Source: Pedobacter glucosidilyticus DSM 23534 (GTDB lineage: Bacteria > Bacteroidota > Bacteroidia > Sphingobacteriales > Sphingobacteriaceae). Taken from it: DNA of 64,000 bases. The translations under genes were made by a program, and so were the position numbers. Shown here piece after piece: positions 3,039 through 63,513 of the stretch. The stretch covers positions 1-64,000 of the forward strand of contig NZ_AULF01000012.1 of NCBI RefSeq assembly GCF_000425145.1, given 5' to 3'. How positions within the stretch are numbered: position 1 is the first letter of the stretch; every line of letters starts with the position of its first letter. A model generated the notes under the pieces. The model searched no databases. It had not been told where the DNA came from and saw nothing but the letters and a program-made list of their open reading frames with translations.

Positions 3039-3965
3039 CTAGGGTGCAATGTTAACTTCTAACTCTTTAATAACTCTACTTTCTCCGTAAACATTAATAT
3101 TAAAAGCTTCAAAAGTAACTTTGTAATTACCCGGCTGGTTATAAATGAAAGTATATTCATCTAAACGTGTACTAATATTTTTAAGTGGTGTACCTATATC
3201 TGATTTTACACTAATAAGATTAACAGCATTAGAAACTGCCCAAACTTGGTTACTCAATGCGGTTGAGCCCCCACCCACTATTTGCAACACTCCGGAATTA
3301 AATGTAAAATTGGATGGTGAAGTGCCGAATTTAACTGTGTTCCAACTCATACCACTAATACTAATTACAGGTATAATTTGGTTATCTGTATTAGTTGTAA
3401 GTTTAATATCGAATCTATTGATCCTCCAAGTCCTTTGCGTACTTCCTGTATTACCTGTAAACTTAAAGGCAAAATAAATAGGCTTAGTTTTATCAATAGT
3501 TAATCCCAAAGATCCTAAAGTTAATAAATTAACAACGCCAGAATTAGTATAAACATCTCCGCTAACAGATGTAGATAGTGTAAAAGCTGAAGTAATATCC
3601 ACCCAATCAGTAGTCTCATTAATACTTGCCTCCAAATACTGTCCATTAAACTTTTGAGAAGCAAAAAGCTTTAATGATTGAGGCTGCTGAGCATCAGTAC
3701 CTAGCCTTCTGTTAGTTGCAAAATCTAAGGTTATATTATCACTTTCGGCAATAGTTCTATTTCTATAAATAAACCTACTCCCTTCTAAACCAGAATAAAA
3801 TAATAACTGGTCTGGATTACCGGATAATATAAACTTTACGGTATCTCCAACTTTATAGTTTGTTCTCTCTGTTTGAACAGAGAAATCTAACTTTACTACC
3901 TCTTTTTTATTACATGCTAAAAAAAGCAGTAATAATGGTATTATAAATATATTTTTCATCATCAT
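3039..3965 (-). CDS. DUF5017-like SusE-position lipoprotein
   Basis: A 308-residue lipoprotein with lipobox LFLAC directly after a short hydrophobic segment. The N-terminal part contains YKVGDTVKFILSGNPDQ and FYSGLEG, the pattern I associate with DUF5017 proteins encoded after SusD. Beyond about residue 130 it looks beta-rich without a recognised catalytic motif. It starts 18 bp after SusD, so it is the third gene of the SusC-SusD unit. Proteins at this position are usually surface glycan-binding lipoproteins that help SusCD capture substrate; that role is inferred from position. Three consecutive Met codons open the frame, so the exact start is uncertain by two residues. Confidence 0.7.
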   Translation of the reverse strand: MMMKNIFIIPLLLLFLACNKKEVVKLDFSVQTERTNYKVGDTVKFILSGNPDQLLFYSGLEGSRFIYRNRTIAESDNITLDFATNRRLGTDAQQPQSLKLFASQKFNGQYLEASINETTDWVDITSAFTLSTSVSGDVYTNSGVVNLLTLGSLGLTIDKTKPIYFAFKFTGNTGSTQRTWRINRFDIKLTTNTDNQIIPVISISGMSWNTVKFGTSPSNFTFNSGVLQIVGGGSTALSNQVWAVSNAVNLISVKSDIGTPLKNISTRLDEYTFIYNQPGNYKVTFEAFNINVYGESRVIKELEVNIAP

Positions 3966-5555: not shown

Positions 5556-5625
5556 TTCGCTATTTAAAAAGGGGATTCTGAAGCCATTTCTTAATTTTTC
5601 ATTTTTATTGATCATAACCATATAA

Positions 5626-46037: not shown

Positions 46038-47867
46038 TTATTCTATAGAAGGATAACTAGTACTATTTCTATTATTATATTTTTTAGTCCAATTAATAAT
46101 AGAACTAAAGAAAATAATTAGGGCACATCCTAAAATTACAATCGATAAAAATAAATTTATCCATCCTTGAACATAGGTTTCTGTATATCCTAATTGAGGT
46201 ATATATATATTTAAAATATTTGTTAAACCAGCATAAACAGTTGTTATACTGATAAACAAAAAAGGTATAATGGTAATCCAAGAATACTTGAGTTTCCCTC
46301 TATTGATAATATAGGTAGTACCCACCGCTAGAGCAATAGAAGCCAACAGTTGATTAGCAGTACCAAATAAAGGCCAAATTGTTGATACGCTCCCGGTATA
46401 AATAAAATATCCCCAGCAAAAAACAATTATTAAACTAGCTATTATATTACCCGGTAACCAGTTAGTCTTAGCAAAAGGTGCATAAATTTTACCTAACATT
46501 TCTTGAAGCATAAAACGCCCAATTCTGGTACCGGCATCTATGGTGGTTAATATAAATAAGGCTTCGAACATTATAGCAAAATGATACCAATAAGACATCA
46601 ATCCATTTAACCCTGGTATAGAAGAAAATATTTGTGCCATACCAACACCTAATGAGACGGCACCACCTGTTCTACCGGCAATCTCTTCACCCACTTCTTT
46701 AGATAATTGATTTAAATTAGAATCTACAAATCCCATACTTTTTAACTGTGGCAGAATCTCATTAAATTTTTCTACAGGTACATTTATTGCAAAATAGTCT
46801 AAGGGTAGTAAACTAGAAGCGGCAATTAATGCTAAAATACTAACCAAAGCTTCAACAAGCATAGAACCCGCAGCAATACTTTTTATATGAGATTCTTTCA
46901 TAATCATTTTAGGGGTAGTGCCAGAGCTTACTAAAGCATGAAAACCAGAAACAGCGCCACAAGCTATTGTTATAAATAGGTAGGGAAATAGTGTACCTGG
47001 GATAATAGGTCCACCACCATGAATAAAATCTGTAACAGCCGGCATGTGTAAGGTAGGTGCTACCCAAATAACACCAATTGCAAGCATGCCTATAACCACT
47101 ATTTTCATTATAGAACTTAAATAATCTCTAGGAGATAATAATAACCAAACTGGCAAAACTGAAGCTGCAAAGCCATAACCTATTAATAAAATGGTAAGCG
47201 TTTTATGATCATAAGTGAACCATTCTGCATATTGCGAGTCGGGTATATAGCGACCAATTATAACCGCAAGAGTTAAAAAAATAACACCAATAATAGTAGA
47301 TTCAACCGTTTTACCAATACGAATCTTAAACATCCAAACTCCCATAAAGAGGGCAATAGGTATAGTGGATGCAATTGTGAAAAGTCCCCAGGAACTCTCT
47401 GCTAAAGCATTTACCACAACTAAGCCCAAGCCTGCCATGGCAATAATTAAAATTAAAAGTATTGCAATAGAAGAGGTATATCCACTTACTTTATTTATTT
47501 CTTTACGAGCAATTTCTGCCAATGATTTACCATCATACCTAACTGATGCATAAAGAATAATAAAATCATGAACGGCTCCTGCGAATATGGCACCAACTAA
47601 CATCCATATAAAGCCTGGCATATATCCAAATTGAGCTGCTAAAACAGGCCCAACTAAAGGTCCTGCACCTGCAATCGCAGCAAAATGGTGCCCAAATAAA
47701 ACCCACTTATTTGTAGGAATATAATTTTGTCCGTCATAAAGGCGGGAAGCCGGAGTCTCCTTTAAATCGTTAATGGTAATAAGCTTTGCTATTGCAAAAC
47801 TTATGTAAAACCTATACCCTAGAACAAGGATAAGGATGGCAACAATAACCAAAGGCATTGCATTCAT
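46038..47867 (-). CDS. cstA: CstA-family carbon starvation transporter
   Basis: A 609-residue inner membrane protein with about 16 predicted helices. Family signs: N-terminal [39 protein letters not shown] across two motifs, [20 protein letters not shown] in the middle (as [19 protein letters not shown]), and [20 protein letters not shown]. CstA proteins import pyruvate or small peptides in enteric bacteria. Here it lies 23 bp after the GH2-LamG gene and ends the PUL2 operon, an unusual partner for xylan utilisation. It could retrieve pyruvate or other organic acids lost during growth on xylan; that is inference. Confidence 0.92.
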
Positions 47868-47890: not shown

Positions 47891-50800
47891 TTAATTTATT
47901 GCTAATGACGCTAATTCTTCGTCTGTTAAAACCCTATTAAAAACTGCTAAGCCAGCAATTTGACCCTTAAAGTTATTCCCCATACCTGATTTAAGCTGAA
48001 CTGCGCCAACAGTAAAATCAGACCCTAGGTTACCCATTCCATTTGGAAAATAATAAGGGTTTTTAGATTGTATTAGCCCATCTGGATAGCCTTTAAAACC
48101 TTTAGTGTTATTAATTAGCTCGGGCTCGGTAGGTTCAAAAACTCCATTCATAAAAGATTTCATATAATTACCATCATAAGTAAATGCTACACTTTTCCAT
48201 TCATTTGCTGGTACTTCTTGCTTACTTGCAGAATAATCAACAGAATATGGAAAGGGTGGAGTAGGTTTACCGGTGTCTGATATATGACCACATACTTTGT
48301 TTGCTCCATTATAATAAGGTAAAGAAACAAATAATCCATATTGTCTTTTACCACCATCTTGGTACTCATTCCACATGCCTCCAACAAATCCTTGCTGTTC
48401 ACCTGTCCATTTTACCCAAGCTATTACTGTAACTTTGGCATCTTTACCATGTATATTTAACTCGCCAGTTTCAGAATGAGGAAGAGATAGATAGGTTTTT
48501 CCATCAAATTTAGATGAAAATCCTGATAGAGGCCCTTCATTTATTCTTGGTATACTGCCATTAAATTCTTTGAGAGGAAAATTTGAGGCACCAATAGCTT
48601 CTCTAGCCTGATTTTGATCTTCTTTAAAATCCCAAAGTGCTACTAATCCCTTCATAGAAGCTACTTTTTCTTTTAAACTTTGACTAGTATAACTAATCAT
48701 ATTTAATAGCAGCTTTTCTGCTACAACATTAGCAGCCACTATTTCTCTTTCATTTAAAGATTCTAAAGCGGCGTTTTCACCTTCAAGAGATTGATTCGAT
48801 ACAGCAGCAAGATTTTTATCGTTAAGGCAAGATAATATGTCTAAAGATGTGATAATGATTTTACCACGTCCTAACGGAATAACACTGAGAGCAGAAAAAA
48901 CCTCTTTTTTATGATCGGTTATTGCAGCAACAATAGTCTCACCAGATTTTATTTGTAAACCAATGCGTATTTTATTGTAGGTGTTAAAACACTGATATTC
49001 CCAATTAAAAACGCCGGTTTGAGGTAAGTTTATAAAAAGGGGATGTGGTTTAGCAAAGAAATTTCCCCCCATCCAAACCTTACCTAATTCTTTACTACCT
49101 CTGTAATCAATAACTTCCTTATCCGCTAAATGCTGTGCCCATTCTGCAGCTTTCCCTACTATAATGAGTGACCCACCTTCATTTACCCAATTAATGATAT
49201 CTGTTGTTTGGGTTCTTACATATTTAGGAGAAGCATTACCTACAATTAAATATTTACCCTCGGGTTTACCCTTTGTATAATTACCAGCTTTAATATTTTT
49301 TGATTTTAAGAAAGATGCTATTACTCCGCTAGAATCGTATACGCTTCCCAAAGCTGCTAATGAAGAAACTGCTGATTCTACTGCAAAAACTTCGTCTGAT
49401 CCTTCAGATAAAATTTTGTCGCCCTTAAACAATCTGGCCTTAACAACAGTATAACCAGATTTTAAATTTGAGATAGCAATATCCGAGGCTATTAATTCTC
49501 CATATTTATTGCCGCCGGTTACTTTAACATTAACACTTTTATTAAAAATGCTTTTGTTTTGATGAAGCGCAGTGATTTCTAACCTATAATTACCCTTCAA
49601 AACGTTTTGATTAACAATAAAAAAGTCGGCCTTGATGGTAGAATTTTCTGCCACTACTTTGTTCCTAAGTTTAACAGCTATGTATAGAGGTTTGCTGTAT
49701 TTAGCAATCAAATTAACGTCTCCTTTAAAATTTCTATAATTATCTACAATACCAGAATGGTTTTCTAGTTTCATACTCTCCCAACCATTTATCATATAGG
49801 CATCACTTATATTACCTATACGGGTATTTTCTATCATTCTACCCTGATAATAATAAGCTACATTCCCTATTCTCCTGCAAAGTGTATCCACATTTTTGTA
49901 AAACTTTTTAAAATCTGGGTTTTCATACAAGAAATCATCATAAGCTTTGTACCATTTTAAATAATCGTCTTTTTCCCAACCAGCCAACTTACTTTTTTCA
50001 ATTTCTTCTTTTATCAACCCTAATCTGGGTGGGGTACCAATCGCCCCTTCTTCTCCCCAAATAACAATTTCATCTTTATGTGTAATGTGTTTATAAAAAC
50101 TAGTTGGGCTTTTGTAGGTATTATCATGATAGCTCCCCGGTCCTCCTGCATGGTGTTCGTCCCACCAACCATAATTTTGAAGTTTAGCGTTATATGGTAA
50201 AACATGAAGCTTTTGTGCATAAGGTGTATAAGGATTACCTTTCAATCCGGGAAATAGATGAGGTGAATCATAAGTTATTATTCTTGTAGGATCTATTTTT
50301 TGAGCGTCTATTAAATCTAAAGAATCTTGTTTATTAGGCAAAATAGATCTTTCATTATGAAAATTGTAAATGATAAGCGATGGATGGTTGCGGTCTCTTT
50401 TTATCATCCTAAACATTTTTTCCCTACGCCATTGAGAGATAAAATCAATATTGGAAGCTATGCTATCTTTAGCAATAGGATATTGAGTATGATTACTTTG
50501 ATATCCACCTGGCTCTTCATAAAGAAACAATCCTAAGCTATCTGCAGCATCAAAAACTCGTGGATCTCCAATAGCTCTATGGAAATTTAACATATTTAGA
50601 CCTAACGTTTTTGCTGCTTTAATTTGCTTAATAGCTAACTCTTTTGTTGGAGTAATTCCATTTACTGGCCAAAAACTCCAAGATATAGCGGATAGAAGAA
50701 AAACTCTTTTCCCATTTAAGAAAAACTGGCTATCGCCATTATCTTTCCTAATTTCAAACCAGCGGAAACCGAACCTTTCTCTAACTACATCTCTAGAACC

Positions 50801-51700
50801 ATCATCGCCTTTCCATGCTACTTGTAGGGTATATAAGTTAGGTGTTTCTGGCGACCATAAATTTGCTTTGGGAAATAGAATAGAGGTATTTAAAAGTCCA
50901 TTTAACTGCTTAACCTTTAATGTTTTGGTTAAGACTGATTGATTGCCTTTTAACAATGTAAAGTTTAAGCTTCCCCAACTTTTATTTAGTAAATTAACTT
51001 GTACTTCTATTTCTTTAGGATTAGGCTTGTTTTTTATAAACACATTGTCAATATAGGTTTTATCGGTTACTACCAAATTTACGTCACCAGTTATCCCACC
51101 AAAACCATGACTAGCCATTGTAACTTTACTACCCCATTCATAATGTAAATTATCACGCCAATCAAATCCGCCATTAGGGTCTGTAATTCTTACGGCAATC
51201 TCATTCTCTTTACCAAAGATTACCTTGTCAGTGATATCTATTTCAAAAGGTGTCCCATCAACTAAATCATATCCAGATAATTTCCTATTTATATAAACCT
51301 CTGCCCGCATTCTTACGCCTTCAAATTGTAGGGTTATTCTACGGTTCTTTAATTCATTATCAACCTTAATTGTAGAATAGAACCAAGAAACGCCAACATA
51401 ATTTCCTGTAACTCCAAAGGTGCTATTGTTATTTCCCCAATAATGTGCTTCAACAGTCGTAGGTATTTTAACAACTTTCCCTTTGTTTTTTAGAACTTCC
51501 CATCCTTCTGTAGGTTTATGAGGTTTTAACTTAGATAGGCTTACTGGAGGTAAGAAAATAGAATCATTCTTCCAATCTGCTTGAGTATCCAACCATAAAT
51601 ACCAATTCTGGTTAGAAAGATTTGTAATAATTCGAGTTTGTGATTTAGTAGTTAAGGAAAAACAACTAAAAAATATTATAAAATAAAATAAACTTCTCAT
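47891..51700 (-). CDS. Large GH2 glycosidase with C-terminal LamG domain
   Basis: A 1269-residue secreted protein (signal ends TTKSQ). Jelly roll with NWYLWLDTQADWKNDSIFLP and WGNNNSTFGVTGNYVGVSWF (two motifs), Ig-like region, then a TIM barrel with FNFHRAIGDPR. The acid/base region is YNFHNERS (E450), not the usual W-S-x-G-N-E, and the likely nucleophile is E550 or E551 in VIWGEEGAIG. After the barrel come about 400 residues of unassigned domains, including a GATase-like KYLIVGNASPKYVRTQ segment. The end (about 1040-1269; ALWDFKEDQNQA, AVFNRVLTDEELA) is a LamG/concanavalin-like module. It is probably a xylan side-chain or xylosidic enzyme; exact activity unknown. Confidence 0.8.
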   Translation of the reverse strand: MRSLFYFIIFFSCFSLTTKSQTRIITNLSNQNWYLWLDTQADWKNDSIFLPPVSLSKLKPHKPTEGWEVLKNKGKVVKIPTTVEAHYWGNNNSTFGVTGNYVGVSWFYSTIKVDNELKNRRITLQFEGVRMRAEVYINRKLSGYDLVDGTPFEIDITDKVIFGKENEIAVRITDPNGGFDWRDNLHYEWGSKVTMASHGFGGITGDVNLVVTDKTYIDNVFIKNKPNPKEIEVQVNLLNKSWGSLNFTLLKGNQSVLTKTLKVKQLNGLLNTSILFPKANLWSPETPNLYTLQVAWKGDDGSRDVVRERFGFRWFEIRKDNGDSQFFLNGKRVFLLSAISWSFWPVNGITPTKELAIKQIKAAKTLGLNMLNFHRAIGDPRVFDAADSLGLFLYEEPGGYQSNHTQYPIAKDSIASNIDFISQWRREKMFRMIKRDRNHPSLIIYNFHNERSILPNKQDSLDLIDAQKIDPTRIITYDSPHLFPGLKGNPYTPYAQKLHVLPYNAKLQNYGWWDEHHAGGPGSYHDNTYKSPTSFYKHITHKDEIVIWGEEGAIGTPPRLGLIKEEIEKSKLAGWEKDDYLKWYKAYDDFLYENPDFKKFYKNVDTLCRRIGNVAYYYQGRMIENTRIGNISDAYMINGWESMKLENHSGIVDNYRNFKGDVNLIAKYSKPLYIAVKLRNKVVAENSTIKADFFIVNQNVLKGNYRLEITALHQNKSIFNKSVNVKVTGGNKYGELIASDIAISNLKSGYTVVKARLFKGDKILSEGSDEVFAVESAVSSLAALGSVYDSSGVIASFLKSKNIKAGNYTKGKPEGKYLIVGNASPKYVRTQTTDIINWVNEGGSLIIVGKAAEWAQHLADKEVIDYRGSKELGKVWMGGNFFAKPHPLFINLPQTGVFNWEYQCFNTYNKIRIGLQIKSGETIVAAITDHKKEVFSALSVIPLGRGKIIITSLDILSCLNDKNLAAVSNQSLEGENAALESLNEREIVAANVVAEKLLLNMISYTSQSLKEKVASMKGLVALWDFKEDQNQAREAIGASNFPLKEFNGSIPRINEGPLSGFSSKFDGKTYLSLPHSETGELNIHGKDAKVTVIAWVKWTGEQQGFVGGMWNEYQDGGKRQYGLFVSLPYYNGANKVCGHISDTGKPTPPFPYSVDYSASKQEVPANEWKSVAFTYDGNYMKSFMNGVFEPTEPELINNTKGFKGYPDGLIQSKNPYYFPNGMGNLGSDFTVGAVQLKSGMGNNFKGQIAGLAVFNRVLTDEELASLAIN

Positions 51701-51747: not shown

Positions 51748-53943
51748 TTATTCTAAAATAAAGTCTAGAGACGATTTTATATCCCTTGATGAAGAACCAA
51801 TTAAAGCAGAGAACTTACCTGCCTCTGCAACCCACTGTTTTTTATTATCACTATAAAATTTTAAGCTGCTTTTATCAATTTTAAATGAAATTATTTTCTC
51901 CTCTCCTGGTAAAAGTTCTACTTTTTGGAACGCCTTTAATTCTTTTTCTGGCCTTAATTCTGATGACTTTTTATCATGAATATATAATTGAATTACTTCT
52001 TTACCAGCTATATTACTCGTGTTTTTTACTGGAACAGTAACAGTAAGCACATCATTATCTTTTATGCTTGTCTTATCTATTTTAGCTTTTCCATATAAAA
52101 ATTTGCTGTAGCTTAAACCAAAACCAAATGGATATTGAGATGCAATTTTTTTTGTATCATACCAACGGTAACCTACTAAAATATCATCTTTATAATATTG
52201 ATTTGTGCTATCGCCTGGGTAAGAAATTTCGCCAAATGCATGTGCACTATTATCGGTTAGTTTAACAGGAAAACTAAATGGCAGTTTACCGCTCGGGTTT
52301 ACATCACCAGATAAAATATTAGCTATGGCATTACCAGACTCTGAACCTAAATACCAAGCTTGAATTAATGTTGTAGCTTTATTTAGCCATGGCATTTCAT
52401 AAGCGTTACCACTTAACATCACCATTACTATGTTCTTATTTACTTGTTGCAATCCACTTATCAGTTGATTTTGGTCAAAAGGCAATTCGTATGATTTTCT
52501 GTCATCGCCTTCAGAATCTTGCTGGCTATTCTTATTTAAACCACCAACATAAATTACAAGGTCTGCTTCTTGAGCAAGTTTAATAGCTACAGTTCTTAAA
52601 GAGTCGGTATTATATTTTGGAGGGAGAACTTTATCATAAGCAACATCTCCAGAAGCATAACCCATAGTATAAGTGATTTTGGCTTTACCAAATTTGTTTG
52701 ATATACCTTCTAAAGGTGAGACCTCTTTTTTTACTTTTAGCTCCGAAGAGCCTCCGCCTTCTGTTAATTTACGAGTTGCATTTTCCCCTACAATTACTAT
52801 CTTTTTATATTTTGCTGCATTTAAAGGTAATAAGCCTGCTGAATTTTTTAAAAGAACAATGCCTTCTTCACCAACTTTACGAGCTACGGAATGATGCTCA
52901 TCGTTAGCTAAAGACCCAAATGGCTTATTTTGTGCCATTGCGGTTCTAAAGATTAATCTTAAAATCCGTGAAGCCTTATCATCAATGTTGGATAGAGGTA
53001 TTTCACCTGCTTTTAACATTTTTAAGTAAGGACTAGCTAGATAATAATTATCGTATGCTGCAGAAACATTACTGGTAAAGCCATTTGTATAAGTTCCCAT
53101 TTCTATATCTAAGCCATTTAATGCCGCTTCGCGAGTGTTATGAGTACCTCCCCAGTCAGAAATAACGGTACCATCAAAACCCCAATCTTTTTTCAAAATT
53201 TTATTAAGTAAAAGATCATTATGACAAGCATATTCTCCTCGCACTTGGTTATAAGCACCCATAATTGTCCAAACTTTACCCTCTTGTACTGCGGCCTTAA
53301 AAGCTGGTAAATAAATTTCATTTAAGGCTCTGTCACTCACTTCAACATTTATATGGTTTCTCCATTTCTCCTGATTATTTAATGCAAAATGTTTTACACA
53401 AGCAGCTACTCCATTTCTCTGTACTCCTTGTATATAAGGCACCACCATTTTTGATGCTAAATATGGGTCTTCACCCATATACTCAAAGTTTCTACCATTA
53501 AGCGGAGTCCTATAAATATTAACTCCTGGTCCAAGAAGGACATCTTTTCTTCTATATCTGGCCTCTTCACCAATAGCATTACCGTATAAATAAGAAACCG
53601 AAGGATCCCAAGTGGCAGCTAAACAGGTTAAAGCTGGGAAAGCTGTACAAGAGTCATTGGTCCATTTTGCATGGTTCCAACTGTCCCATAAGATTTCCAT
53701 TCTAACTCCATGTGGACCATCACTCATCCATATTTCGGGGATTCCTAAACGGGGAACACCATGGCTACTAAATTTAGATTGTGCTGTTGTTAACTTTACT
53801 TTTTCTTCTAGTGTCATTCTAGAAAGCGCATCTTTTACCCTAGTTTCTATAGGTTGGCTATTATCTAAATAAATTTGAGCTTGACTGTAACCACAGATAC
53901 TAAATAAGAAGGTTAGAGATAAAGTTAGAATACGAATAGTCAT
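51748..53943 (-). CDS. GH3 beta-glycosidase (beta-xylosidase/beta-glucosidase type)
   Basis: A 731-residue secreted GH3 enzyme (signal peptide ends YSQAQ). Order: N-terminal TIM barrel with MTLEEKVKLTT, LGPGVNIYRTPLNGRNFEYMG in two motifs, the KHFALNNQE block and nucleophile D263 in TVISDWGGT; then the alpha/beta sandwich with LLKNSAGLLPL and GSSELKVKKEVSPLEG, and a C-terminal fibronectin III-like domain from about 610 (YPFGFGLSYSKF, GKEVIQLYIHD). It is expected to release xylose or glucose from oligosaccharides in the periplasm. Position in PUL2 between the lipoproteins and GH2 favours beta-xylosidase. Confidence 0.9.
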   Translation of the reverse strand: MTIRILTLSLTFLFSICGYSQAQIYLDNSQPIETRVKDALSRMTLEEKVKLTTAQSKFSSHGVPRLGIPEIWMSDGPHGVRMEILWDSWNHAKWTNDSCTAFPALTCLAATWDPSVSYLYGNAIGEEARYRRKDVLLGPGVNIYRTPLNGRNFEYMGEDPYLASKMVVPYIQGVQRNGVAACVKHFALNNQEKWRNHINVEVSDRALNEIYLPAFKAAVQEGKVWTIMGAYNQVRGEYACHNDLLLNKILKKDWGFDGTVISDWGGTHNTREAALNGLDIEMGTYTNGFTSNVSAAYDNYYLASPYLKMLKAGEIPLSNIDDKASRILRLIFRTAMAQNKPFGSLANDEHHSVARKVGEEGIVLLKNSAGLLPLNAAKYKKIVIVGENATRKLTEGGGSSELKVKKEVSPLEGISNKFGKAKITYTMGYASGDVAYDKVLPPKYNTDSLRTVAIKLAQEADLVIYVGGLNKNSQQDSEGDDRKSYELPFDQNQLISGLQQVNKNIVMVMLSGNAYEMPWLNKATTLIQAWYLGSESGNAIANILSGDVNPSGKLPFSFPVKLTDNSAHAFGEISYPGDSTNQYYKDDILVGYRWYDTKKIASQYPFGFGLSYSKFLYGKAKIDKTSIKDNDVLTVTVPVKNTSNIAGKEVIQLYIHDKKSSELRPEKELKAFQKVELLPGEEKIISFKIDKSSLKFYSDNKKQWVAEAGKFSALIGSSSRDIKSSLDFILE

Positions 53944-54029
53944 AAATTTTTATTTTGTTTTTTTAGCGTACTTTAATCATACTATCAGGAAATAAAGACG
54001 ATTTCCTAATAGTATTTTGGTCGCATTAG

Positions 54030-54476
54030 TTATATTACTTTTATATTGGCTGTAATGGTAGATGATTTTACAATCTGCCCATCTTTAGATGCTGATTTTG
54101 CGATTACCCATAACTTGTAATTTCCTCTAGTAGAATATATCTTAAAAAAATCAACGCCTGTACTAGACAGAGGGAAATTTGATCCAGAATTATTAAGGAT
54201 ACCGTAGTTTGCTCCAGTATCACCTGTCCAAATAGAAAAATGGGTGCCTTTACTAGTATTTTTAAAAACTAGTTGTTCATTTCTTCTTACCACTAAAGTA
54301 TCTGTTCCTGGAATGTATTTAACAGTATCATTAACTAGTTTAGAATTTTGTAAATCAACATATTGCCAATACAATTCAAAAGATGCTACAGGATCTGGTA
54401 CTTCTTCTGTTTTTTTACAAGAAACTACGGTTACCAAAAGAGATAATAGGCCACCAATTATTATATACTTTTTCAT
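54030..54476 (-). CDS. Small SusE-position lipoprotein, paralogue of the next upstream gene
   Basis: A 148-residue lipoprotein (lipobox VVSC followed by KKTEEVPDP). The core reads TLVVRRNEQLVFKNTSKGTHF followed by SIWTGDTG, clearly similar to the upstream protein (DTIIFKNSSTGSYSSIYTGDT). Otherwise no recognised domain. It lies 28 bp from its paralogue and 86 bp before GH3. By position it is the SusE/SusF counterpart, so a surface xylan-binding role is likely but unshown. Confidence 0.75.
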   Translation of the reverse strand: MKKYIIIGGLLSLLVTVVSCKKTEEVPDPVASFELYWQYVDLQNSKLVNDTVKYIPGTDTLVVRRNEQLVFKNTSKGTHFSIWTGDTGANYGILNNSGSNFPLSSTGVDFFKIYSTRGNYKLWVIAKSASKDGQIVKSSTITANIKVI

Positions 54477-54504
54477 TTATTTATAATTAAAAACTACCAA
54501 AAAA

Positions 54505-55086
54505 TTAACGTACTACGGTTAAAAAAACAACAGAGGTATCAATTAAGGCTCTACCATCTTCGTCCCAATTATAAGTGTAAGATTTCACTTTATAACGGCC
54601 TATTCTACTGTATCTGTATGGATAAATACCTGTATAGAATTGCCCATTTATATCTCTATAAATCTTTCTTCCGCTTGTACCATACTCTGCTTCCAAATCA
54701 ATATTAGGTTTGGGGAAATAGGCAGCAGTTACATTTACAGTTTGCCCAGTAATTACATCTAAAAACCTAGATTGTGGTTGGTCTGCAATTCTAGCACCCG
54801 AGATACTTCCATTTGAATTAAATAAAGTATCGCCAGTATATATTGAAGAATAAGAGCCTGTTGAACTGTTTTTAAAAATGATGGTATCTGTAAGTTTAAA
54901 TGTACGAGAAGGTACTTCTACTAATCGTATAGTATCACTTGCTCTTCTAGAAATTGAAGCTCCTTTAAAAACTTCAAAACTTGATTTTGGAGTTGATACC
55001 TTTTCGGTTTTTTTACAAGAGATAAAAATTGTTACTGCTAGTATTATTAAGAAGCAGTAAGATGTGCAATATTTTTTCATAATCAT
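54505..55086 (-). CDS. SusE-position lipoprotein, tandem paralogue
   Basis: A 193-residue lipoprotein with lipobox FISC and KKTEKVSTP after it. The mature part opens SFEVFKGASISRR and contains FKLTDTIIFKNSSTGSYSS and IYTGDTLFNSNG, the same theme as the following gene and a weak echo of VGDTVKFILSGNPDQLLFYSG in the DUF5017-like protein of PUL1. Its ATG overlaps the SusD stop by one base (TAATG); a second ATG six bases later may be the true start. Coupling to SusD supports a cell-surface complex. Confidence 0.75.
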   Translation of the reverse strand: MIMKKYCTSYCFLIILAVTIFISCKKTEKVSTPKSSFEVFKGASISRRASDTIRLVEVPSRTFKLTDTIIFKNSSTGSYSSIYTGDTLFNSNGSISGARIADQPQSRFLDVITGQTVNVTAAYFPKPNIDLEAEYGTSGRKIYRDINGQFYTGIYPYRYSRIGRYKVKSYTYNWDEDGRALIDTSVVFLTVVR

Positions 55087-56864
55087 TAGTAGCCAGGGTT
55101 TTGTGTTAAATTTTTGTTTACAACTAGTTCATTAGCAGGTATAGGGAGCAAATAGTTATAATTAAAAGGTCGCCCATCCTGAACCTTACTGGTTAAGGTT
55201 CTTAAAGTCTCTAACTTTCTTTTTCTAAAAAGATCAAAAAGTCTTGTTCCTTCCCACAAAAGCTCATAATCATACTCATTCCATAATTCATTAGAAAAAT
55301 CAGTATAATTAAGCTGTCTTAATAAGGTTTGGCTAGTGAGGTATAATCCTGTGTTATCTGTTGGCTTTCTGGTTCTTACACTAGTTAAAGCACCCGTTAT
55401 ACGTGGCATTGGTACACCTCTTGTAAGATCCACTGTTGCAAAATTTATACGTATATTTTGTCTCGATGTACTTATTGCATCGGTGGTTTCTTCAAACTCA
55501 ATAAATCCTCTAGGCGTAAACTGTGTCTCGAATTTAGAGTAATTTGGTCTGTGAGTAGTACTTGTTGGTGTTGTTAATCCAGTTGATGTACCAAAAAAAG
55601 TAGACCCTCTCTTTCTAACCATAGATAAATACATTGCCGCACTATCTGTTGGTCCTTGGTTTACCTCGTTTGCAGCTTCAGCATAAATAAGCATAACTTC
55701 TGCTAATCTTAAAACAGTACCATCTACGCCTGTAATACCTGCATTTGTTGCACCTGGATCCCAGAATTTTGTAGGATAAAATGCTCTTCTGATAGTGCCA
55801 TAATAGTACATTCTCCATTTGCGATAATCAAAAGGAAGTCTACGATAGGTTTCTATTAAAACGGAGCTACTCCCCATCCAACTAGGATTTCTTAAAGCAA
55901 TTGGGTTACTTAAATCCATTGTTCGAGCCATGAACTGATCGAATAAGCCATTATTCAAATCATGTGGAAATGATAAAATAGTTTCAGATCCTTGCTCAAA
56001 AGCTACAGAATGATTTTTGGCATAATCATCAAATAAAGCATAATCATTATCTTTTAAAACAAGAGCAGCATAATGTTTAGACTTATTATAATACTCTGTT
56101 GCATTGCCAAAAGCATACACCTCAGGGAAATTTTTATGATAATCACCTAAGTATAAGTAAACTTTAGAAAGTAAGGCTCTAGCTGCGCCAGCACTTGCTC
56201 TAAATTTATCTATTGTAGCATAGGAACTTTTTTTAGGTAAGATATTTGCGCATTCTACTAAGTCCTTAACTATTAAATCTCTATAGATAATTTCTTTACT
56301 TGTTTTTGGTAAATTACTCTCTTGGTTAAGTGCTGTAAAAGCTTTAAGAGGCATTGGTACATCACCCCAAAAATTAACTGCGTAGAAAAAGCATAATGCT
56401 CTTAAGAATTTGGCTTCAGCAATAATACGGTCTTTAAGTTTATAGGTTTTACCATCTATTGCTTCATAAGTTGTAATTGATGCTGATGGACTTAATTCAT
56501 CTGCTTTTTCTATGATATAATTTGCAGAGTTAATAGCCCTATAAAGTGTTTGATAAGGTATTTGAAAGTCTGCTGAGGAAGGAGATAATCTCCATGAGGT
56601 TGAACCACCAAGACCGGTTTCTGTTTGATGCGTCATCCCACTAGTTAAACGTACAATTCCATCAAAATCTAAGAATCCACCTCTTCCTCCTAAATTTCTA
56701 TAAGCACTACCTAATGCAGCAAGGGCATCACCTTCTGTTTTAATAGTTGTAGCAGAATCAAAGATTCCAAAAGGTTTTTCCTCTAAAAGTTCTTTTCCAC
56801 AAGCTGATAGTAACAAACTAATGACTATAGTATAATACAAGATTATTTGTTTTATCTTTTTCAT
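55086..56864 (-). CDS. SusD/RagB-family lipoprotein of PUL2
   Basis: A 592-residue SusD homologue (lipobox LLSAC). Features: KELLEEKPFGIFDSATTIKT after the signal, the TPR-like bundle with AEAKFLRALCFFYAVNFWGDVP, ASAGAARALLSKVYLYLGDY, and the C-terminal LWEGTRLFDLFRKRKLE and LLPIPANE with final NLTQNPGY. It binds oligosaccharides at the surface and caps SusC. It follows susC by 24 bp and precedes the two paralogous lipoproteins. Confidence 0.93.
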   Translation of the reverse strand: MKKIKQIILYYTIVISLLLSACGKELLEEKPFGIFDSATTIKTEGDALAALGSAYRNLGGRGGFLDFDGIVRLTSGMTHQTETGLGGSTSWRLSPSSADFQIPYQTLYRAINSANYIIEKADELSPSASITTYEAIDGKTYKLKDRIIAEAKFLRALCFFYAVNFWGDVPMPLKAFTALNQESNLPKTSKEIIYRDLIVKDLVECANILPKKSSYATIDKFRASAGAARALLSKVYLYLGDYHKNFPEVYAFGNATEYYNKSKHYAALVLKDNDYALFDDYAKNHSVAFEQGSETILSFPHDLNNGLFDQFMARTMDLSNPIALRNPSWMGSSSVLIETYRRLPFDYRKWRMYYYGTIRRAFYPTKFWDPGATNAGITGVDGTVLRLAEVMLIYAEAANEVNQGPTDSAAMYLSMVRKRGSTFFGTSTGLTTPTSTTHRPNYSKFETQFTPRGFIEFEETTDAISTSRQNIRINFATVDLTRGVPMPRITGALTSVRTRKPTDNTGLYLTSQTLLRQLNYTDFSNELWNEYDYELLWEGTRLFDLFRKRKLETLRTLTSKVQDGRPFNYNYLLPIPANELVVNKNLTQNPGY

Positions 56865-56888: not shown

Positions 56889-59800
56889 TTAAAAGGTTAT
56901 AGAAATTCCTGACGTAATAGAAGCGGCAACAGGATATCCTCCAGTGTCGTAGCCTTTAATAAGGTTATCTGCTTGGCTATCACTTGGGTTATAACCTGGG
57001 TATTTTGTAAATGTATATAGGTTGGTTCCAGTAGCATATACTCTAAAGGCAGTAATACCTAAACGCTGGCTTTTAAGAGGCAATAGGTAAGAAAGTGTAA
57101 CATTTTGTAGCCTAACAAAAGAAGCATCTTTTATAGACCAAGAAGATAATGTACTATTAAACAAAATGCCAGGGTTTGCATTAGAAGGGTTACTTTCTGT
57201 CCATCTGTTTTCCCATAAATCTGCAAATGAGTTTGTTAATGGATTTAAGTTAAACTGCTTATTAAGTAAAAACAACTTGTCATGCCCAATCATTCCTTGT
57301 AAGAAGACATTTAAACGAAACCTTTTATAGTTAAAAGTATTGTTTAGACCAAAGAAAAAATCAGGGTTAGCGTTACCTATAGGCGCAATATCATCTTGAT
57401 TAAGCAAGCCATCACCATTTAAATCCATAAAATTTAAATCTCCATAAATTTTATTATCTCTAGCCATGTGCCTGTTTTCAAACAAGTCTTGATAACCGGG
57501 TTGTAAGATGCCTTTTTGCACTAAACCGTATAGATTATTTAGACGAGCACCTTCTTCTACTTTAGCTAAGATATCTGTTGCTCCTACACCCGCTACTCCT
57601 CCTGCTGATCCTAAAATCACATAAGGTGGTAAGCCATCCAAATTTGTTACTATTCCTCTATCTAAAGAGAAATTAAGATTTGACGACCATTTGAAATTTG
57701 GAGAAGTAAAGTTTTCGGTATTTAAGGTAAACTCAAATCCATCAATTCTCAATCCACCTTTATTAGATAGGTAACTTGTTTGGCCCGAAATAAGAGAAGG
57801 AGATGATCTTAGCAATAAATCGCTAGTGTTTTTCCGATAGTAATCAAAAGTTAAAGAAACTCTGTCTTTTAATACTCCTATATCAAAACCCAAATTAAAT
57901 TGCTTTGTAGTTTCCCAACCTAAATCCGGATTCTCTAGGTTAACAATATTAAGAGAAGTACCAATACCGCCGTTTAATGCGTACGGAGCAGTAGTTAAAT
58001 AACCTTTAGATAAGTAATCTGCAATACGATCATTACCAGATACTCCATAGCTTAACCTAAATTTTAAATTACTAATAGCATTTATGTCTTTAATAAATTT
58101 TTCCTCGCTTACTCTCCATGCAAATGCTACAGAAGGAAAAAAGCCCCACTTTTTATTGGTTCCAAATTTCGAAGATCCATCGGATCTTCCTGAAAAGGTA
58201 AAAAGATATCTATCTAAAAGCGTATAATTTACTCTTCCCAAATAAGATAATCTCTTATTTTGAATTCTGTTTGATGCCCAAGAATTAGCTAAAGCACCTA
58301 GACCCAAATTGTCATAAGATGTCTGATTAGTAAAAAAGTTAGATACTTGAAATTCTGAGAATGACCTTGTAAAACTAGAATACTCATAAACAGCTGTGGC
58401 ATCTAGCCTATGGGCTTTAGAAAAGTTTTTCTTGTAGATGATTTGATTGGTAAGGGTAGAACTTTCTGATAAACTTTCATTAGATATTCCATAACCATTC
58501 CACATACCTCCAAACCAAACATTAGACGGAAAATAAGACTTATTATGCGTTGAACTTAAATTACTTCCATATCTAACACGAGCTTCAAAATTTTTAGAAA
58601 AAACATAATTAGCAAAGACATTACCTGTTAGTAAGAGATTCTTCCTATCTAGTTGGGAGTCTTCTTGTATAGCAACTAGATTTTGATTAATGTTTGTTAT
58701 ATTAATAATATTTCCCATCTCGCCCCAGTTACCTAAGTCATCTTTAATAGGAACAGTAGGTGCATATAAAAGAGCTTTAGATATATCAACACCTTGGTTT
58801 ACACTGCTGGCCCAGGCATCTTTAACATTAGACAAATTAGCATTAACCCCTATTTTTAGCTTAGGCGATAATTGTAAATCCACATTAACCCTATTATTAA
58901 GTTTTTTAAGAAAAGAGTTAATCAATATTCCTTGATTATCTTGATAATTAGAAGAGATATTATACTTTACAACATCCGATCCGCCAGAAACTCTTGCCTG
59001 ATAATTAACAGATGATGATGTTCTTAAAACTGCGTCTTGCCAGTCTGTATTTATATTATCCCCGTAAAATAGTGGATCAAATCTATCGATAGTATTAGTT
59101 CTTAGTGCTGCATTTCTATGCAACTCTGCATATTGTGTAGCATTCATTAAATCTAATTTCCTATCTACCCAGCTTTGTGTATTATAAACTTCTGCATCTA
59201 ACTTCGCTTTTCCTTTTGCACCACCCTTGGTGGTAATTAATATAACCCCATTAGAACCTCTTGATCCATAAATTGCAGTGGCTGACGCATCTTTCAACAC
59301 CTCTATAGAAGCTATATCGTTAGGATTTAAAGTAGACAGAATATTAACATTACCACTTGCTCCAAAAAAAGTACCGCTAGGAGAACCGGCGTCTCCCAAA
59401 TCAAAAGGGATACCATCTATAACATATAAGGGCTGTGAACCAGCATTTACAGAATTTGTTCCTCTTACTCTGATATCTATGGGTGCACCTGGTCCGCCAC
59501 CACTGCCTATAAACACACCAGCTGCCCTTCCTTGTATCATTTGATCAACGCTTATTAGAGGAACATCTTCTAAGTCTTTCATTTTAATAGAGCCTACAGC
59601 ACCGGTTAAATCACTCTTTCTAACAGTTCCATAGCCAACTACCACTACCTCTTCTAAGAGTTTTTTAGATTCTAATAAGGAAACATCTAATTTACTCTGG
59701 TTATTGGTAGCCTTCTCTAAGGTTTCATACCCCATGAAACTAAAAATTAAAGTTGTATTTAAGCTGCTCAGTTCTATACTATATTCTCCTTTTAAGTTTG

Positions 59801-60041
59801 TAATAGATTTTTTTGTGCTGCCTTTTTCGGCAACTAATACACCAGGGATTGTTGTCTTAGTTTCTGAATCTGTAACAACACCCTTGATGATAAACTTTTT
59901 TACCTCTGTGGTTTGTGAGAATAAAGAGTTTGTGGTAAAGAAAATGAGAAATACAAAAGTTGCTAGTTTGAAGAAATGCTTAAATAAGTATTTCTTCTCT
60001 CGAATTCTGCAGTTCCTACATAATTGAGTTAAGGTTTTCAT
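56889..60041 (-). CDS. SusC/RagA-family TonB-dependent transporter of PUL2
   Basis: A 1050-residue outer membrane transporter for xylo-oligosaccharides by context. It has an extended basic N-terminus and a signal segment (about 25-43, ends SLFSQ), a carboxypeptidase-like domain (FIIKGVVTDSETKTTIPGVL), the signature LEEVVVVGYGTVRKSDLTGAV, a plug domain with DASATAIYGSRGSNGVILITTK split over two motifs, and a barrel ending ASITSGISITF. The leader contains AAACCAAT (reverse of 60055-60062), as in PUL1's susC. It lies 48 bp after the GH10-T9SS gene. Confidence 0.95.
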   Translation of the reverse strand: MKTLTQLCRNCRIREKKYLFKHFFKLATFVFLIFFTTNSLFSQTTEVKKFIIKGVVTDSETKTTIPGVLVAEKGSTKKSITNLKGEYSIELSSLNTTLIFSFMGYETLEKATNNQSKLDVSLLESKKLLEEVVVVGYGTVRKSDLTGAVGSIKMKDLEDVPLISVDQMIQGRAAGVFIGSGGGPGAPIDIRVRGTNSVNAGSQPLYVIDGIPFDLGDAGSPSGTFFGASGNVNILSTLNPNDIASIEVLKDASATAIYGSRGSNGVILITTKGGAKGKAKLDAEVYNTQSWVDRKLDLMNATQYAELHRNAALRTNTIDRFDPLFYGDNINTDWQDAVLRTSSSVNYQARVSGGSDVVKYNISSNYQDNQGILINSFLKKLNNRVNVDLQLSPKLKIGVNANLSNVKDAWASSVNQGVDISKALLYAPTVPIKDDLGNWGEMGNIINITNINQNLVAIQEDSQLDRKNLLLTGNVFANYVFSKNFEARVRYGSNLSSTHNKSYFPSNVWFGGMWNGYGISNESLSESSTLTNQIIYKKNFSKAHRLDATAVYEYSSFTRSFSEFQVSNFFTNQTSYDNLGLGALANSWASNRIQNKRLSYLGRVNYTLLDRYLFTFSGRSDGSSKFGTNKKWGFFPSVAFAWRVSEEKFIKDINAISNLKFRLSYGVSGNDRIADYLSKGYLTTAPYALNGGIGTSLNIVNLENPDLGWETTKQFNLGFDIGVLKDRVSLTFDYYRKNTSDLLLRSSPSLISGQTSYLSNKGGLRIDGFEFTLNTENFTSPNFKWSSNLNFSLDRGIVTNLDGLPPYVILGSAGGVAGVGATDILAKVEEGARLNNLYGLVQKGILQPGYQDLFENRHMARDNKIYGDLNFMDLNGDGLLNQDDIAPIGNANPDFFFGLNNTFNYKRFRLNVFLQGMIGHDKLFLLNKQFNLNPLTNSFADLWENRWTESNPSNANPGILFNSTLSSWSIKDASFVRLQNVTLSYLLPLKSQRLGITAFRVYATGTNLYTFTKYPGYNPSDSQADNLIKGYDTGGYPVAASITSGISITF

Positions 60042-60089: not shown

Positions 60090-61694
60090 TTAAAAATTAG
60101 ACAATAGCTTAATTTTCTTTGACTCTGAAATGTTATTTCCTTTTATATTTAGAACTATTAAATCTGTTTCTAGGTCAAAAACCTGAAAAACTTTAGTTTC
60201 TTCATTATTAAATATTTTTTGGGCTATCAACCTCCCATCAATAGAGACTATTTGTATAATTCCTTTAAAACTGCTATTTAGGTTTACCATAATAGATTTA
60301 TCTCTGTTAAATTGCAGATTATAAAGAGGCGTTTTATCATTAGCAATTACGACAATATTACTTTTGGTTGTTTTTCCGTCATAATCATATCCTACTACTC
60401 TATAGTAAGCTATTGTGCTTAAAGGTTCTAAATCCTCAAATTGGTAAAAGGATATATTATTAATAGCTTGCTTAACGGGTTCTGTGTGTTTTAAATTAAA
60501 TACTTTTCCATCTACAGATTTTTCAATTGTAAAATGACTAAGATTTACTTGATCTTGAGTTTGCCACCTTAAAACTGTTTTATTAAATTCTGATTTAGCC
60601 GAGATATTTAAAAAAGATACGGGAAGGGTAGCAGCTTGCGTAAATAATTCATTTAGCATACTTGTATATGCGGGTTTAGGATTATAGCTAGAATCAAAAG
60701 GTAAAGCATAACCATGTGTAAAACCAGAATAATTAGGTATCCAAGAGTACAAATCGGTGAATCCCCATGTCATAAAAGTCTTACAATTAGGATTGTTTAG
60801 ACATAGCAATAACATTCTTCTATAATCTTCTGCCTGGCGACTGAGTTGTAGCGCACTATTGGTATCATAATCTGTATTTTTGATTCTAATATCTAGTTCT
60901 GTAATGGCAACATCTATCCCAATAGCCGCATAATTTTTTATATTTCGATCTATCTGTGTAAAAAATATATTATTCACAAAAAAGTGGCACTGAAACCCTA
61001 CCCCATGTATGGGTATATTACGTTGCTTTAAAGAAGTTATAAGATTAAACATTGCGTTTGAGCGTACACTACCTGTTGCCTCTATATAGTAATCGTTTAT
61101 ATAAAGCTTGGCAGCCGGGTCTGCTTGGTTGGCCCATACTAATGCAGAATCTATGTAATCGTTCCCAATGATTTGTTGCCAAATATTAGCTCTTAATGTG
61201 CCATTATCTTCTATAGGTTCATTTACAACATCCCATTGTTGTATTTTATTTTTATATCTAGTAACTACTGTAGTTATATGATTTTTTAAGACAGCTAATA
61301 ATGATTGTCTGGTATAAGCCACGCCATTTTCATCTAGGCCATCACTTAACCACGTTGGATTATTAGCATGCCAAACCAAAGTATGTCCTCGTATTTGCAT
61401 ACCATTTTGAATAGCAAAATCAACTACTTTATCTGCATTAGTAAAATTAAAGTTACCCCTTGTTGGTTGAAGTGCCTTAAATTTCATGTCATTCTCAGAC
61501 ACTAGTATGTTATAATTATTTTTAATGGTATTGATATAGGTATTGCTGCCTAGATAATTAGAGTAAAATGCACCTCCTACAGCAGTACCAATCTTTAAAT
61601 TAAGACTATTAGCATACAGAGATAATGAAGCTTGTTGGCTATATCCTGTTAAAGTATAAATGATAAGAATAATGGTAACTAAAAATTGCCTCAT
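60090..61694 (-). CDS. GH10 xylanase with Ig-like region and T9SS-type C-terminus
   Basis: A 534-residue secreted enzyme (signal peptide ends TGYSQ). The GH10 barrel covers about residues 25-345: IRGHTLVWHANNPTWL, WDVVNEPIEDNG with acid/base E159, and AITELDIRIK with nucleophile E266. After it comes a fibronectin-like segment (KTVLRWQTQDQVNLSHFTIE) and a degenerate T9SS type A sorting domain (IIQIVSIDGRLIAQKIF, DLIVLNIKGNNISESKKIKLL in pieces). It probably works on the cell surface. It is second in the PUL2 operon, 28 bp after the other GH10 gene. Confidence 0.92.
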   Translation of the reverse strand: MRQFLVTIILIIYTLTGYSQQASLSLYANSLNLKIGTAVGGAFYSNYLGSNTYINTIKNNYNILVSENDMKFKALQPTRGNFNFTNADKVVDFAIQNGMQIRGHTLVWHANNPTWLSDGLDENGVAYTRQSLLAVLKNHITTVVTRYKNKIQQWDVVNEPIEDNGTLRANIWQQIIGNDYIDSALVWANQADPAAKLYINDYYIEATGSVRSNAMFNLITSLKQRNIPIHGVGFQCHFFVNNIFFTQIDRNIKNYAAIGIDVAITELDIRIKNTDYDTNSALQLSRQAEDYRRMLLLCLNNPNCKTFMTWGFTDLYSWIPNYSGFTHGYALPFDSSYNPKPAYTSMLNELFTQAATLPVSFLNISAKSEFNKTVLRWQTQDQVNLSHFTIEKSVDGKVFNLKHTEPVKQAINNISFYQFEDLEPLSTIAYYRVVGYDYDGKTTKSNIVVIANDKTPLYNLQFNRDKSIMVNLNSSFKGIIQIVSIDGRLIAQKIFNNEETKVFQVFDLETDLIVLNIKGNNISESKKIKLLSNF

Positions 61695-61722: not shown

Positions 61723-63513
61723 TTAAAGCTTTATAAGTATTTCGTTTCCGCTATTATCTAGCTTTAAATACCTTTTATAATCTTTCCCATTATGTGAAAC
61801 AGATATCTCATATTCCCCACAGTAACCTCGGGTATTAGCTTCTCCTAGAGCGTTTGTTGTTGTAGATATATTTGTTGTCCAAGTTTTATTAACCAGTTCT
61901 GTATAAACTTTTCCATGCGGTCTTAATGTCCAATCTTTATCCCATAAAGCTGCTTCTGGAAACCAATGCGCTCCTGCCCAAAAACCCCATTGTACAAAAC
62001 CGGTTACAGAAGGATGGCTATAAATGGCTATCATAAAATCTTTGATATAGTTGGCTTTAAAATCATCGTCTATACTTCTTATGTCAAATTCAGTAATTTT
62101 AATAGGCAAATTAAATTTGCTGAAGTAATCTAATCTCTCTAAAACAAAAGGTATAGCTGGTGGAGCTCCACCTATATGGCCTTGTTCTCCTATAGCATCT
62201 ATAGGCGCTCCTTCTTTTAGTAGCATAGCAATATTATCATAGAATTTCTGACTACCAGAACCCACTCCTTTACCATGAAATAGCGTAAAATCGTTTAAAA
62301 ACAATTTTAAATCTGGAGCATGTCTATGAGCTGTCTTAAACCAAGTAACCATTTCGTTTTTCCCTAAAACATCTAAAATGTCATGATTAGAAATAGGTTC
62401 ATTGACAACATCCCACTCACTAAATTCACCTTTCATTTTGGTTGTTTGATCTTGAATAACTTCTTTGATTCTTCTTCTTAATGCAGCTGTATCATTTTTA
62501 AGAGATTCTAAACCTGGCGAAAGTCTCCAAGAAGGCCAAACCATAACATGTCCTCTTGCTCCCATACCGTTTTCTCTTAGCCATTTATTGGCTTTTTTCG
62601 TGTTTTCTCCTCGTATAGATGCAGGCTGGGATGTCCAAGATTTCCATTTCATCTCGTTCTCAAAAACTACCTGATTAAAATATTTTTTTAGTGTATCTCT
62701 ATAATGTTTAGCATCACCATTATTTTGTTCTAAAATAAAGGCAGAATTTATTGCAGTACCCCAGTCAAAAGAGTTTCTTTTTAAACTAATAGAAATTTTA
62801 GCATTAGTAAGCGGTCGCCCATTAGGCTGAAGAACTTTAATTTTTAAATCACCTTTACGGATTTTTTCTATTCTTTGCAGAGCATCTTTTCGCCACAGTG
62901 CATCTGGATGGTCGCCCTCATAGCGAACTTTTGAACGGGGCAGATCTTTAAGATTTACAGTCTGTTTATAATTATTTAAAGTTATCGAGCTTATTTGTAG
63001 CTGTTGTTCATAAGAATCAAACTTAATTACAAACTTTGCATCCGCAGCATTTACGTCTTTACCAATAATAAAGGAGAAACTAGTCTCCATCCAGTCTTTA
63101 CCAATAGAAACACCTCTTACAACATGAGCTGGCCAAGCAGCTTTACCATTAACTAAATTATCTAAGCGTAATTCTATAAAACCTTCACCAGTTTCTCTCT
63201 TACTAACTAAGCATCTAGATTTAAAAGAAACCCATAAAATATCTCCTTTTTTTAAATTGGATGTTATAGGTGCCTCTATCCCATTAATTCTATTTCCAGA
63301 AAGTTTATTAAAAGTATTTACTTCTAAATAAGAAAAGTCTGTCCCATTATTTTTTATTTCGGTGGTTAACCCTTTATTGATGTCTGGACCATAACTTGTA
63401 AAGGTTTTAAAATCTTTAGATAATATTGATTCTGCATAAGGCAATTGAGCATGCAAATTATTTACATGCAGCACAGAGTACAGTATTAGTATACGGTAAA
63501 TTAAATTAATCAT
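61723..63513 (-). CDS. GH10 xylanase with N-terminal carbohydrate-binding domain
   Basis: A 596-residue secreted enzyme (signal peptide ends LHAQ) and first gene of the PUL2 operon. Residues about 25-185 form a CBM-like beta-sandwich (GDILWVSFKSRCLV, GKDWMETSFSFIIGKDVNAA). A short linker with RSKVRYEGDHPDALWR and a domain of the type KVLQPNGRPLTNAKISISLK follow. The barrel contains FENEMKWKSW, ARGHVMVWPSWRLSP, EWDVVNEPISNH with acid/base E372 and KITEFDIRS with nucleophile E475, ending FVQWGFWAGAHWFPEAALWD in two parts. The last 60 residues (LGEANTRGYCGEYEISV) resemble a small binding domain. Likely a surface or periplasmic xylanase. Confidence 0.92.
   Translation of the reverse strand: MINLIYRILILYSVLHVNNLHAQLPYAESILSKDFKTFTSYGPDINKGLTTEIKNNGTDFSYLEVNTFNKLSGNRINGIEAPITSNLKKGDILWVSFKSRCLVSKRETGEGFIELRLDNLVNGKAAWPAHVVRGVSIGKDWMETSFSFIIGKDVNAADAKFVIKFDSYEQQLQISSITLNNYKQTVNLKDLPRSKVRYEGDHPDALWRKDALQRIEKIRKGDLKIKVLQPNGRPLTNAKISISLKRNSFDWGTAINSAFILEQNNGDAKHYRDTLKKYFNQVVFENEMKWKSWTSQPASIRGENTKKANKWLRENGMGARGHVMVWPSWRLSPGLESLKNDTAALRRRIKEVIQDQTTKMKGEFSEWDVVNEPISNHDILDVLGKNEMVTWFKTAHRHAPDLKLFLNDFTLFHGKGVGSGSQKFYDNIAMLLKEGAPIDAIGEQGHIGGAPPAIPFVLERLDYFSKFNLPIKITEFDIRSIDDDFKANYIKDFMIAIYSHPSVTGFVQWGFWAGAHWFPEAALWDKDWTLRPHGKVYTELVNKTWTTNISTTTNALGEANTRGYCGEYEISVSHNGKDYKRYLKLDNSGNEILIKL

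Follow-up and report, generated by a model that had tools for sequence, protein, structure and literature searches.

The window (the whole 64,000-nucleotide stretch of DNA analysed here) ends in a PUL encoded on the minus strand, whose genes run in the order GH10, GH10, SusC, SusD, lipoprotein 1, lipoprotein 2, GH3 and GH2. These genes, and the other features considered below, are:

61723-63513, minus strand: second GH10 enzyme (PF00331, 2e-44)
60090-61694, minus strand: GH10 xylanase, upstream of susC (PF00331, 5.7e-103)
56889-60041, minus strand: SusC TonB-dependent transporter (TIGR04056, 5.5e-233)
55086-56864, minus strand: SusD (PF07980, 2.1e-23)
54505-55086, minus strand: lipoprotein 1, an open reading frame of 193 aa with a predicted signal peptide and a Cys at residue 24
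54826-54876, minus strand: motif core of lipoprotein 1 (residues 71-87)
54030-54476, minus strand: lipoprotein 2, an open reading frame of 148 aa with a putative PKD/Ig-like core and a short loop
54216-54266, minus strand: motif core of lipoprotein 2 (residues 71-87)
53979-54015, minus strand: hairpin of 15 pairs (one G-U) between lipoprotein 2 and GH3
51748-53943, minus strand: GH3 enzyme, downstream of the lipoprotein pair (PF00933, 3e-34; PF01915, 7.6e-55)
47891-51700, minus strand: GH2 enzyme with a LamG-like domain (PF00703, 4.2e-13; PF13385, 6.3e-11)
3039-3965, minus strand: DUF5017 lipoprotein of PUL1 (PF16409, 3.8e-52), behind the susD at 3984-5639

The two lipoprotein frames fill positions 54030-55086 exactly, in agreement with the tandem arrangement given in a preliminary description of this DNA. 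The overlap with the susD stop noted there takes the form TAATG, with one shared base at 55086; a further in-frame ATG follows two codons after this start. Lipoprotein 1 is separated from lipoprotein 2 by 28 nt and lipoprotein 2 from the GH3 gene by 86 nt, and the interval between susD and GH3 holds no gene other than these two. The hairpin has a minimum free energy of -19.8 kcal/mol (z -5.4; equal stability in 0 of 200 shuffles) and occurs once in the host genome in a search allowing up to 3 mismatches; terminator prediction gave none at the site. It may protect or end the susCD-lipoprotein portion of the transcript. Both lipoproteins have a lipobox by eye and the operon enzymes show none that is clear by the same inspection, so that SusD and the pair would be the sole lipoproteins of the operon. 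Directly 3′ of the GH2 gene lies a CstA-type carbon starvation transporter (46038-47867, minus strand; PF02554, 1.1e-212). Just beyond the window end, a gene of 1344 aa on the same strand adjoins the second GH10 gene (L171:685-4719, on the same contig), and its product resembles a hybrid two-component regulator, a name given by eye.

The core described earlier as common to the pair, F-K-N-x-S-x-G-x-x-x-S-I-x-T-G-D-T, is present once per lipoprotein, at residues 71-87 in both (FKNSSTGSYSSIYTGDT in lipoprotein 1, FKNTSKGTHFSIWTGDT in lipoprotein 2). The mature parts, of about 120-165 residues, align over ∼70 residues (blastp E 2e-7), with looser likeness around YSxxGxYK close to the C-terminus. 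Their local alignment score of 92 was reached by 0 of 5000 shuffles, as was the score of 84 obtained after the Cys-proximal residues had also been trimmed (0 of 5000); the largest shuffled score was 60. When the proteins of the host genome were searched with lipoprotein 1, lipoprotein 2 was found at 4e-10, and the sole other match was a seemingly unrelated 384-aa frame (E 0.14). As had been proposed, and as judged by these sequence comparisons, the two are paralogues, that is, two diverged copies.

The earlier view that the pair belongs to no described family is borne out, since both proteins remain unassigned in Pfam and NCBIfam. Pfam yielded no family for either full protein at E values up to 5, or for either mature part at E values up to 10. 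Neither lipoprotein lies above the cut-off of the DUF5017 model (PF16409), and neither matches the PKD models PF00801 and PF18911, or any SusE/SusF, CBM or SGBP family model of Pfam or NCBIfam; in NCBIfam, lipoprotein 1 has one match far under the cut-off and lipoprotein 2 has none. The suggestion that the pair replaces SusE/SusF thus holds by position, as the pair occupies the operon place of SusE/SusF and other SGBPs and provides the sole genes between susD and GH3, but does not extend to the proteins, each of which, unlike SusE/SusF and other SGBPs, has one short domain and no family match. Sequence searches of the PDB with the pair gave weak matches. The best of these for lipoprotein 2 fell on the beginning of the SGBP BT3088 (residues 24-92, E 0.02-0.03), which was not recovered in profile searches of the PDB.

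A first indication of the fold comes from the core itself. Many PKD domains carry the strand motif FxNxSxG...WxFGDG, and two different PKD domains in the loci examined contain FKNTSTG letter for letter. With a relaxed motif, six of eight distinct matches outside the pair resemble PKD strands (for example FKNTSTGAISYRWDFGDG), the loci scanned being a set enriched for PKD. The pair shares with PKD domains (PF00801, PF18911) the FxNxSxG strand, a GD turn and a GxYKV strand. It differs from them in its scores, which stay below those of Pfam, in having SI[YW]TGDT in place of WxFGDG, and in a longer path from the GD turn to the GxYK strand: the D of TGDT and the G of that strand are 32 residues apart in lipoprotein 2, against 77 residues in lipoprotein 1, where a longer loop separates TGDT from the YSRIGRYKV strand. 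The core is most simply read as a PKD-type framework in which WxFGDG would have been turned into SI[YW]TGDT.

Direct comparison of the pair with a PKD profile (19 of 24 domains, partial ones excluded; alignment A5, 19 hand-picked members) gave a weak result, with 6 of 300 shuffles reaching the score; for the single proteins, this number rose to 122 of 300 (lipoprotein 2) and 43 of 300 (lipoprotein 1), and a HMMER PKD model returned 2.0 and 4.4, respectively. The predicted structures are of low confidence. AlphaFold2, run on a two-row alignment, predicted mostly beta structures of 7 and 8 strands (mean pLDDT 51.5 and 41.5). The structural neighbours of the first low-confidence model are generic Ig-like sandwiches, including the PKD domain 4xed (Z 7.4, rmsd 2.6, 88 residues aligned), and Foldseek with a low-confidence model returned no match at E 0.001 or better. 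Taken together, there is moderate support for a PKD/Ig-like beta-sandwich as the mature part of each lipoprotein. Literature linking PKD domains, SusD and surface glycan-binding was not found in a search largely confined to papers outside subscription, and the passages on DUF5017 found in such papers do not treat this fold.

The closest kinship of the pair appears to lie with DUF5017. Like DUF5017 lipoproteins, the pair stands directly behind susD, with a VxF...[FW]SGExGxxY-like strand near the N-terminus and a YxxxGxYKVxFxAxN-like strand near the C-terminus; unlike them, it lacks the insert of ∼180 residues between these pieces and has no Pfam score. The Pfam model of DUF5017 spans the N-terminal strands and the insert, and the C-terminal stretch, which resembles the closing part of a PKD domain, falls outside it. 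In the DUF5017 protein of PUL1, residues 266-289 match PKD below threshold (0.0033), and the C-terminal piece of DUF5017 compared with the PKD profile, profile against profile, gives a probability of 90 (E 1.8e-6). The weak form of the core pattern that had been seen in the PUL1 protein is real, if weak, and the likeness reaches to its C-terminal end.

DUF5017 shell and insert also occur separately, as judged from one insert-less protein and three insert-only proteins. DUF5017 was present in 17 of the 80 genomes surveyed, and among the matches was a 182-aa frame that corresponds to model positions 1-60 only. Read out from this frame, L169:2601-3050 is a 149-aa lipoprotein whose gene immediately follows one for a SusD-like protein; it has both DUF5017 ends and lacks the insert. 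Its first part matches PF16409 at 5.8e-21, and it contains a PKD stretch below the cut-off (0.001). Used as a query in 161 genomes, it gave matches in 45, mostly to DUF5017 frames of ∼300 aa, with the match split into two segments (about residues 10-95 and 87-149). The insert-only proteins, 184-196 aa in length (L172:3498-4052, L173:2902-3468 and L170:9702-10289), match the insert part of the model alone, and the first of them is encoded directly behind a full-length DUF5017 protein. DUF5017 proteins therefore look like a PKD/Ig-like sandwich interrupted by an insert of ∼180 residues. A 124-aa frame in a further genome (L204:2247-2621), in which a different N-terminal sequence is joined to the C-terminal end of a DUF5017 protein, is probably a remnant.

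When the profile of the pair was aligned by hhalign with 29 full-length DUF5017 proteins, neither the score of the N-terminal piece nor that of the C-terminal piece was reached by any of 200 column-shuffles, and the whole alignment, with both pieces in the correct order, was matched by 0 of 100. This set was taken unfiltered from 29 of 30 loci (L114, of 188 aa, was dropped) and supersedes an earlier one (18 proteins from 30 loci) that was picked by motif and hence partly circular. The alignments place the two end pieces only; the insert (profile positions about 55-187) is missing from the pair, whose members, at 148 and 193 aa, are shorter than the ∼300 aa of DUF5017 proteins. Single-protein comparisons were more uneven. 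With a HMMER model of DUF5017 built without the window's own member, lipoprotein 2 took second place among 130 window frames (0.0013), with the signal peptide as its best-scoring stretch under the whole model; lipoprotein 1 came fifth (0.082). A model of the C-terminal piece gave 0.022 for lipoprotein 2 and 0.21 for lipoprotein 1; with that of the N-terminal piece, lipoprotein 2 scored 2.8 and lipoprotein 1 was outside the best 12 listed. Lipoprotein 2 aligns nearly end to end with the insert-less L169 protein, its score being reached by one of 3000 shuffles at a gap cost of -11 and by none of 3000 at -8, whereas lipoprotein 1 does not align significantly (304 and 721 of 3000). Like the pair, the L169 protein is a SusD-adjacent lipoprotein without the insert, and it has both of the shell pieces that are putative in the pair; unlike the pair, it is present as a single copy and is still recognised as DUF5017. 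We consider it likely, though not proven, that the pair are remote one-domain relatives of the DUF5017 outer shell that lack the large insert.

No close relatives of the pair were recovered in searches of 100, 300 and 296 genomes. Lipoprotein 1 gave matches in 2 of 100 genomes, its own included, and the other (L004, 0.0065), which falls at the beginning of a 400-aa lipoprotein encoded behind a receptor, was taken as signal-peptide likeness; none was found for lipoprotein 1 in the genome contigs collection or for lipoprotein 2 in the viral contigs collection. A profile of the pair had matches in 3 of 300 genomes of the order, and a second profile in 9 of 296 genomes of the phylum, its own genome being included in both counts. 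The two other matches in the order fall in a PKD domain that precedes a GH16 enzyme (L008) and in a DUF5017 lipoprotein that follows a SusD-like gene (L009), and two of those in the phylum (L130, L135) are PKD domains confirmed with PF18911. Among all ten non-own matches, three thus lie in PKD domains confirmed by Pfam and one in a DUF5017 lipoprotein, and the remaining six look unrelated; on E-value alone these numbers are compatible with chance, and it is the nature of the targets that carries the weight.

Gene neighbourhoods gave a similar picture. A short lipoprotein with the motif was absent from 40 loci behind the best SusC relatives, where the motif matches (L062, L081) were an improbable 83-aa frame and a 473-aa SusD-like protein. 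The pattern W[ST]GDxGxxY was found in 14 of 150 genomes, own included; the matches at L042, L043, L050, L052, L055 and L056 were set aside as short or methyltransferase-like frames. No orthologous PUL was found in the SusC-locus and SusD searches. The SusD at 55086-56864 is itself unusually isolated: with up to five candidates scored per genome, it had no relative at 1e-40 in 250 other genomes of the family, and at 1e-22 relatives appeared in 2 of 246 further genomes of the class.

The most probable account of the pair, to which we assign a probability of about 0.5, joins these lines of evidence: lipoproteins 1 and 2 would be accessory subunits of SusC-SusD with a one-domain, PKD/Ig-like and DUF5017-related fold. 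In the levan utilisome, the SGBP has an Ig-like domain at its lipidated N-terminus and the lip of SusC serves as the platform for the extra lipoproteins, and we infer that the pair may dock likewise. Each lipidated sandwich would lie at the cell surface on the SusC lip, and both would be fixed subunits of a SusC-SusD-L1-L2 complex, where they could perform a mechanical service to the transporter by steadying the lid or passing substrate on; contacts with xylan, if present, would be weak at most. Two lipoproteins, BT2261 and BT2262, have been reported to be bound to a SusCD pair of B. theta (PMC7618045; gene numbers from PMC9599597). The present pair resembles them in that two lipoproteins are encoded with one SusC and one SusD; no sequence relation between the two sets was seen in PDB profile searches, and BT2261/BT2262 are not among the structure matches listed, an absence that does not speak against a shared fold.

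The preliminary description had instead seen in the pair a possible small glycan-binding family. As small surface glycan-binding proteins substituting for SusE/SusF, they would catch xylan or xylo-oligosaccharides with the loops of the sandwich, and their place immediately after susD, within an operon that also encodes two GH10 enzymes, the lack of any other gene in the susD-GH3 interval, the aromatic residues within the motif (SIWTGD, SIYTGD) and the status of SGBPs as usual PUL parts (PMC9599597) all fit such a function. Against this, the residues common to the pair sit on the PKD/Ig-type framework and so speak for fold and say little about ligand, the ∼120-165 mature residues are too few to hold a second, binding module in addition to the sandwich, and a CBM or SGBP family match was not found. 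The family is also thin, with one further comparable insert-less protein seen (L169), which still scores as DUF5017. A glycan-binding family is not supported by the present evidence; glycan-binding is a real possibility, clearly short of even odds, and accessories of the importer are the more likely identity for the pair. It is unlikely that the pair are simply lipidated Ig-like spacers of the DUF1735, BACON or SusE-N kind that have lost a C-terminal module and have no particular kinship with DUF5017. N-terminal Ig-like spacers are common in PULs, and DUF1735, an Ig-like PUL domain, has been proposed to be a membrane-bound spacer (both PMC11216935). The BT3088 match of lipoprotein 2 points the same way but is lost with profiles; Pfam gives no such spacer domain in the pair, and the DUF5017 comparison stands above all 200 shuffles on both pieces. 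Least probable, and by our estimate very improbable, is that the pair are functionless, decaying remnants of a once larger SusD-linked lipoprotein. An orthologue was not found in the genomes searched and a truncated DUF5017-like remnant exists elsewhere (L204), but neither frame is disrupted, each has its signal peptide and Cys, the genes are closely spaced within the operon, and both copies have kept the framework residues.

The accessory-subunit reading makes the pair a variant among the already known Ig-like accessory lipoproteins of PULs. A wider scheme can be drawn from it, which we regard as rather doubtful: stand-alone lipidated PKD-like sandwiches would be dedicated SusC-docking subunits, DUF5017 would be the same sandwich with an insert that also exists alone, and PULs would switch between shell-only, insert-only and combined forms, thereby retuning one docking platform. 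Many SusD-linked lipoproteins are without a family. If the pair and DUF5017 share one sandwich with a gained or lost insert, this would provide a common frame for such lipoproteins and raise the testable question of whether the sandwich is the SusC-docking part; the Pfam boundaries of DUF5017 would then divide one domain and join one of its halves to another domain.
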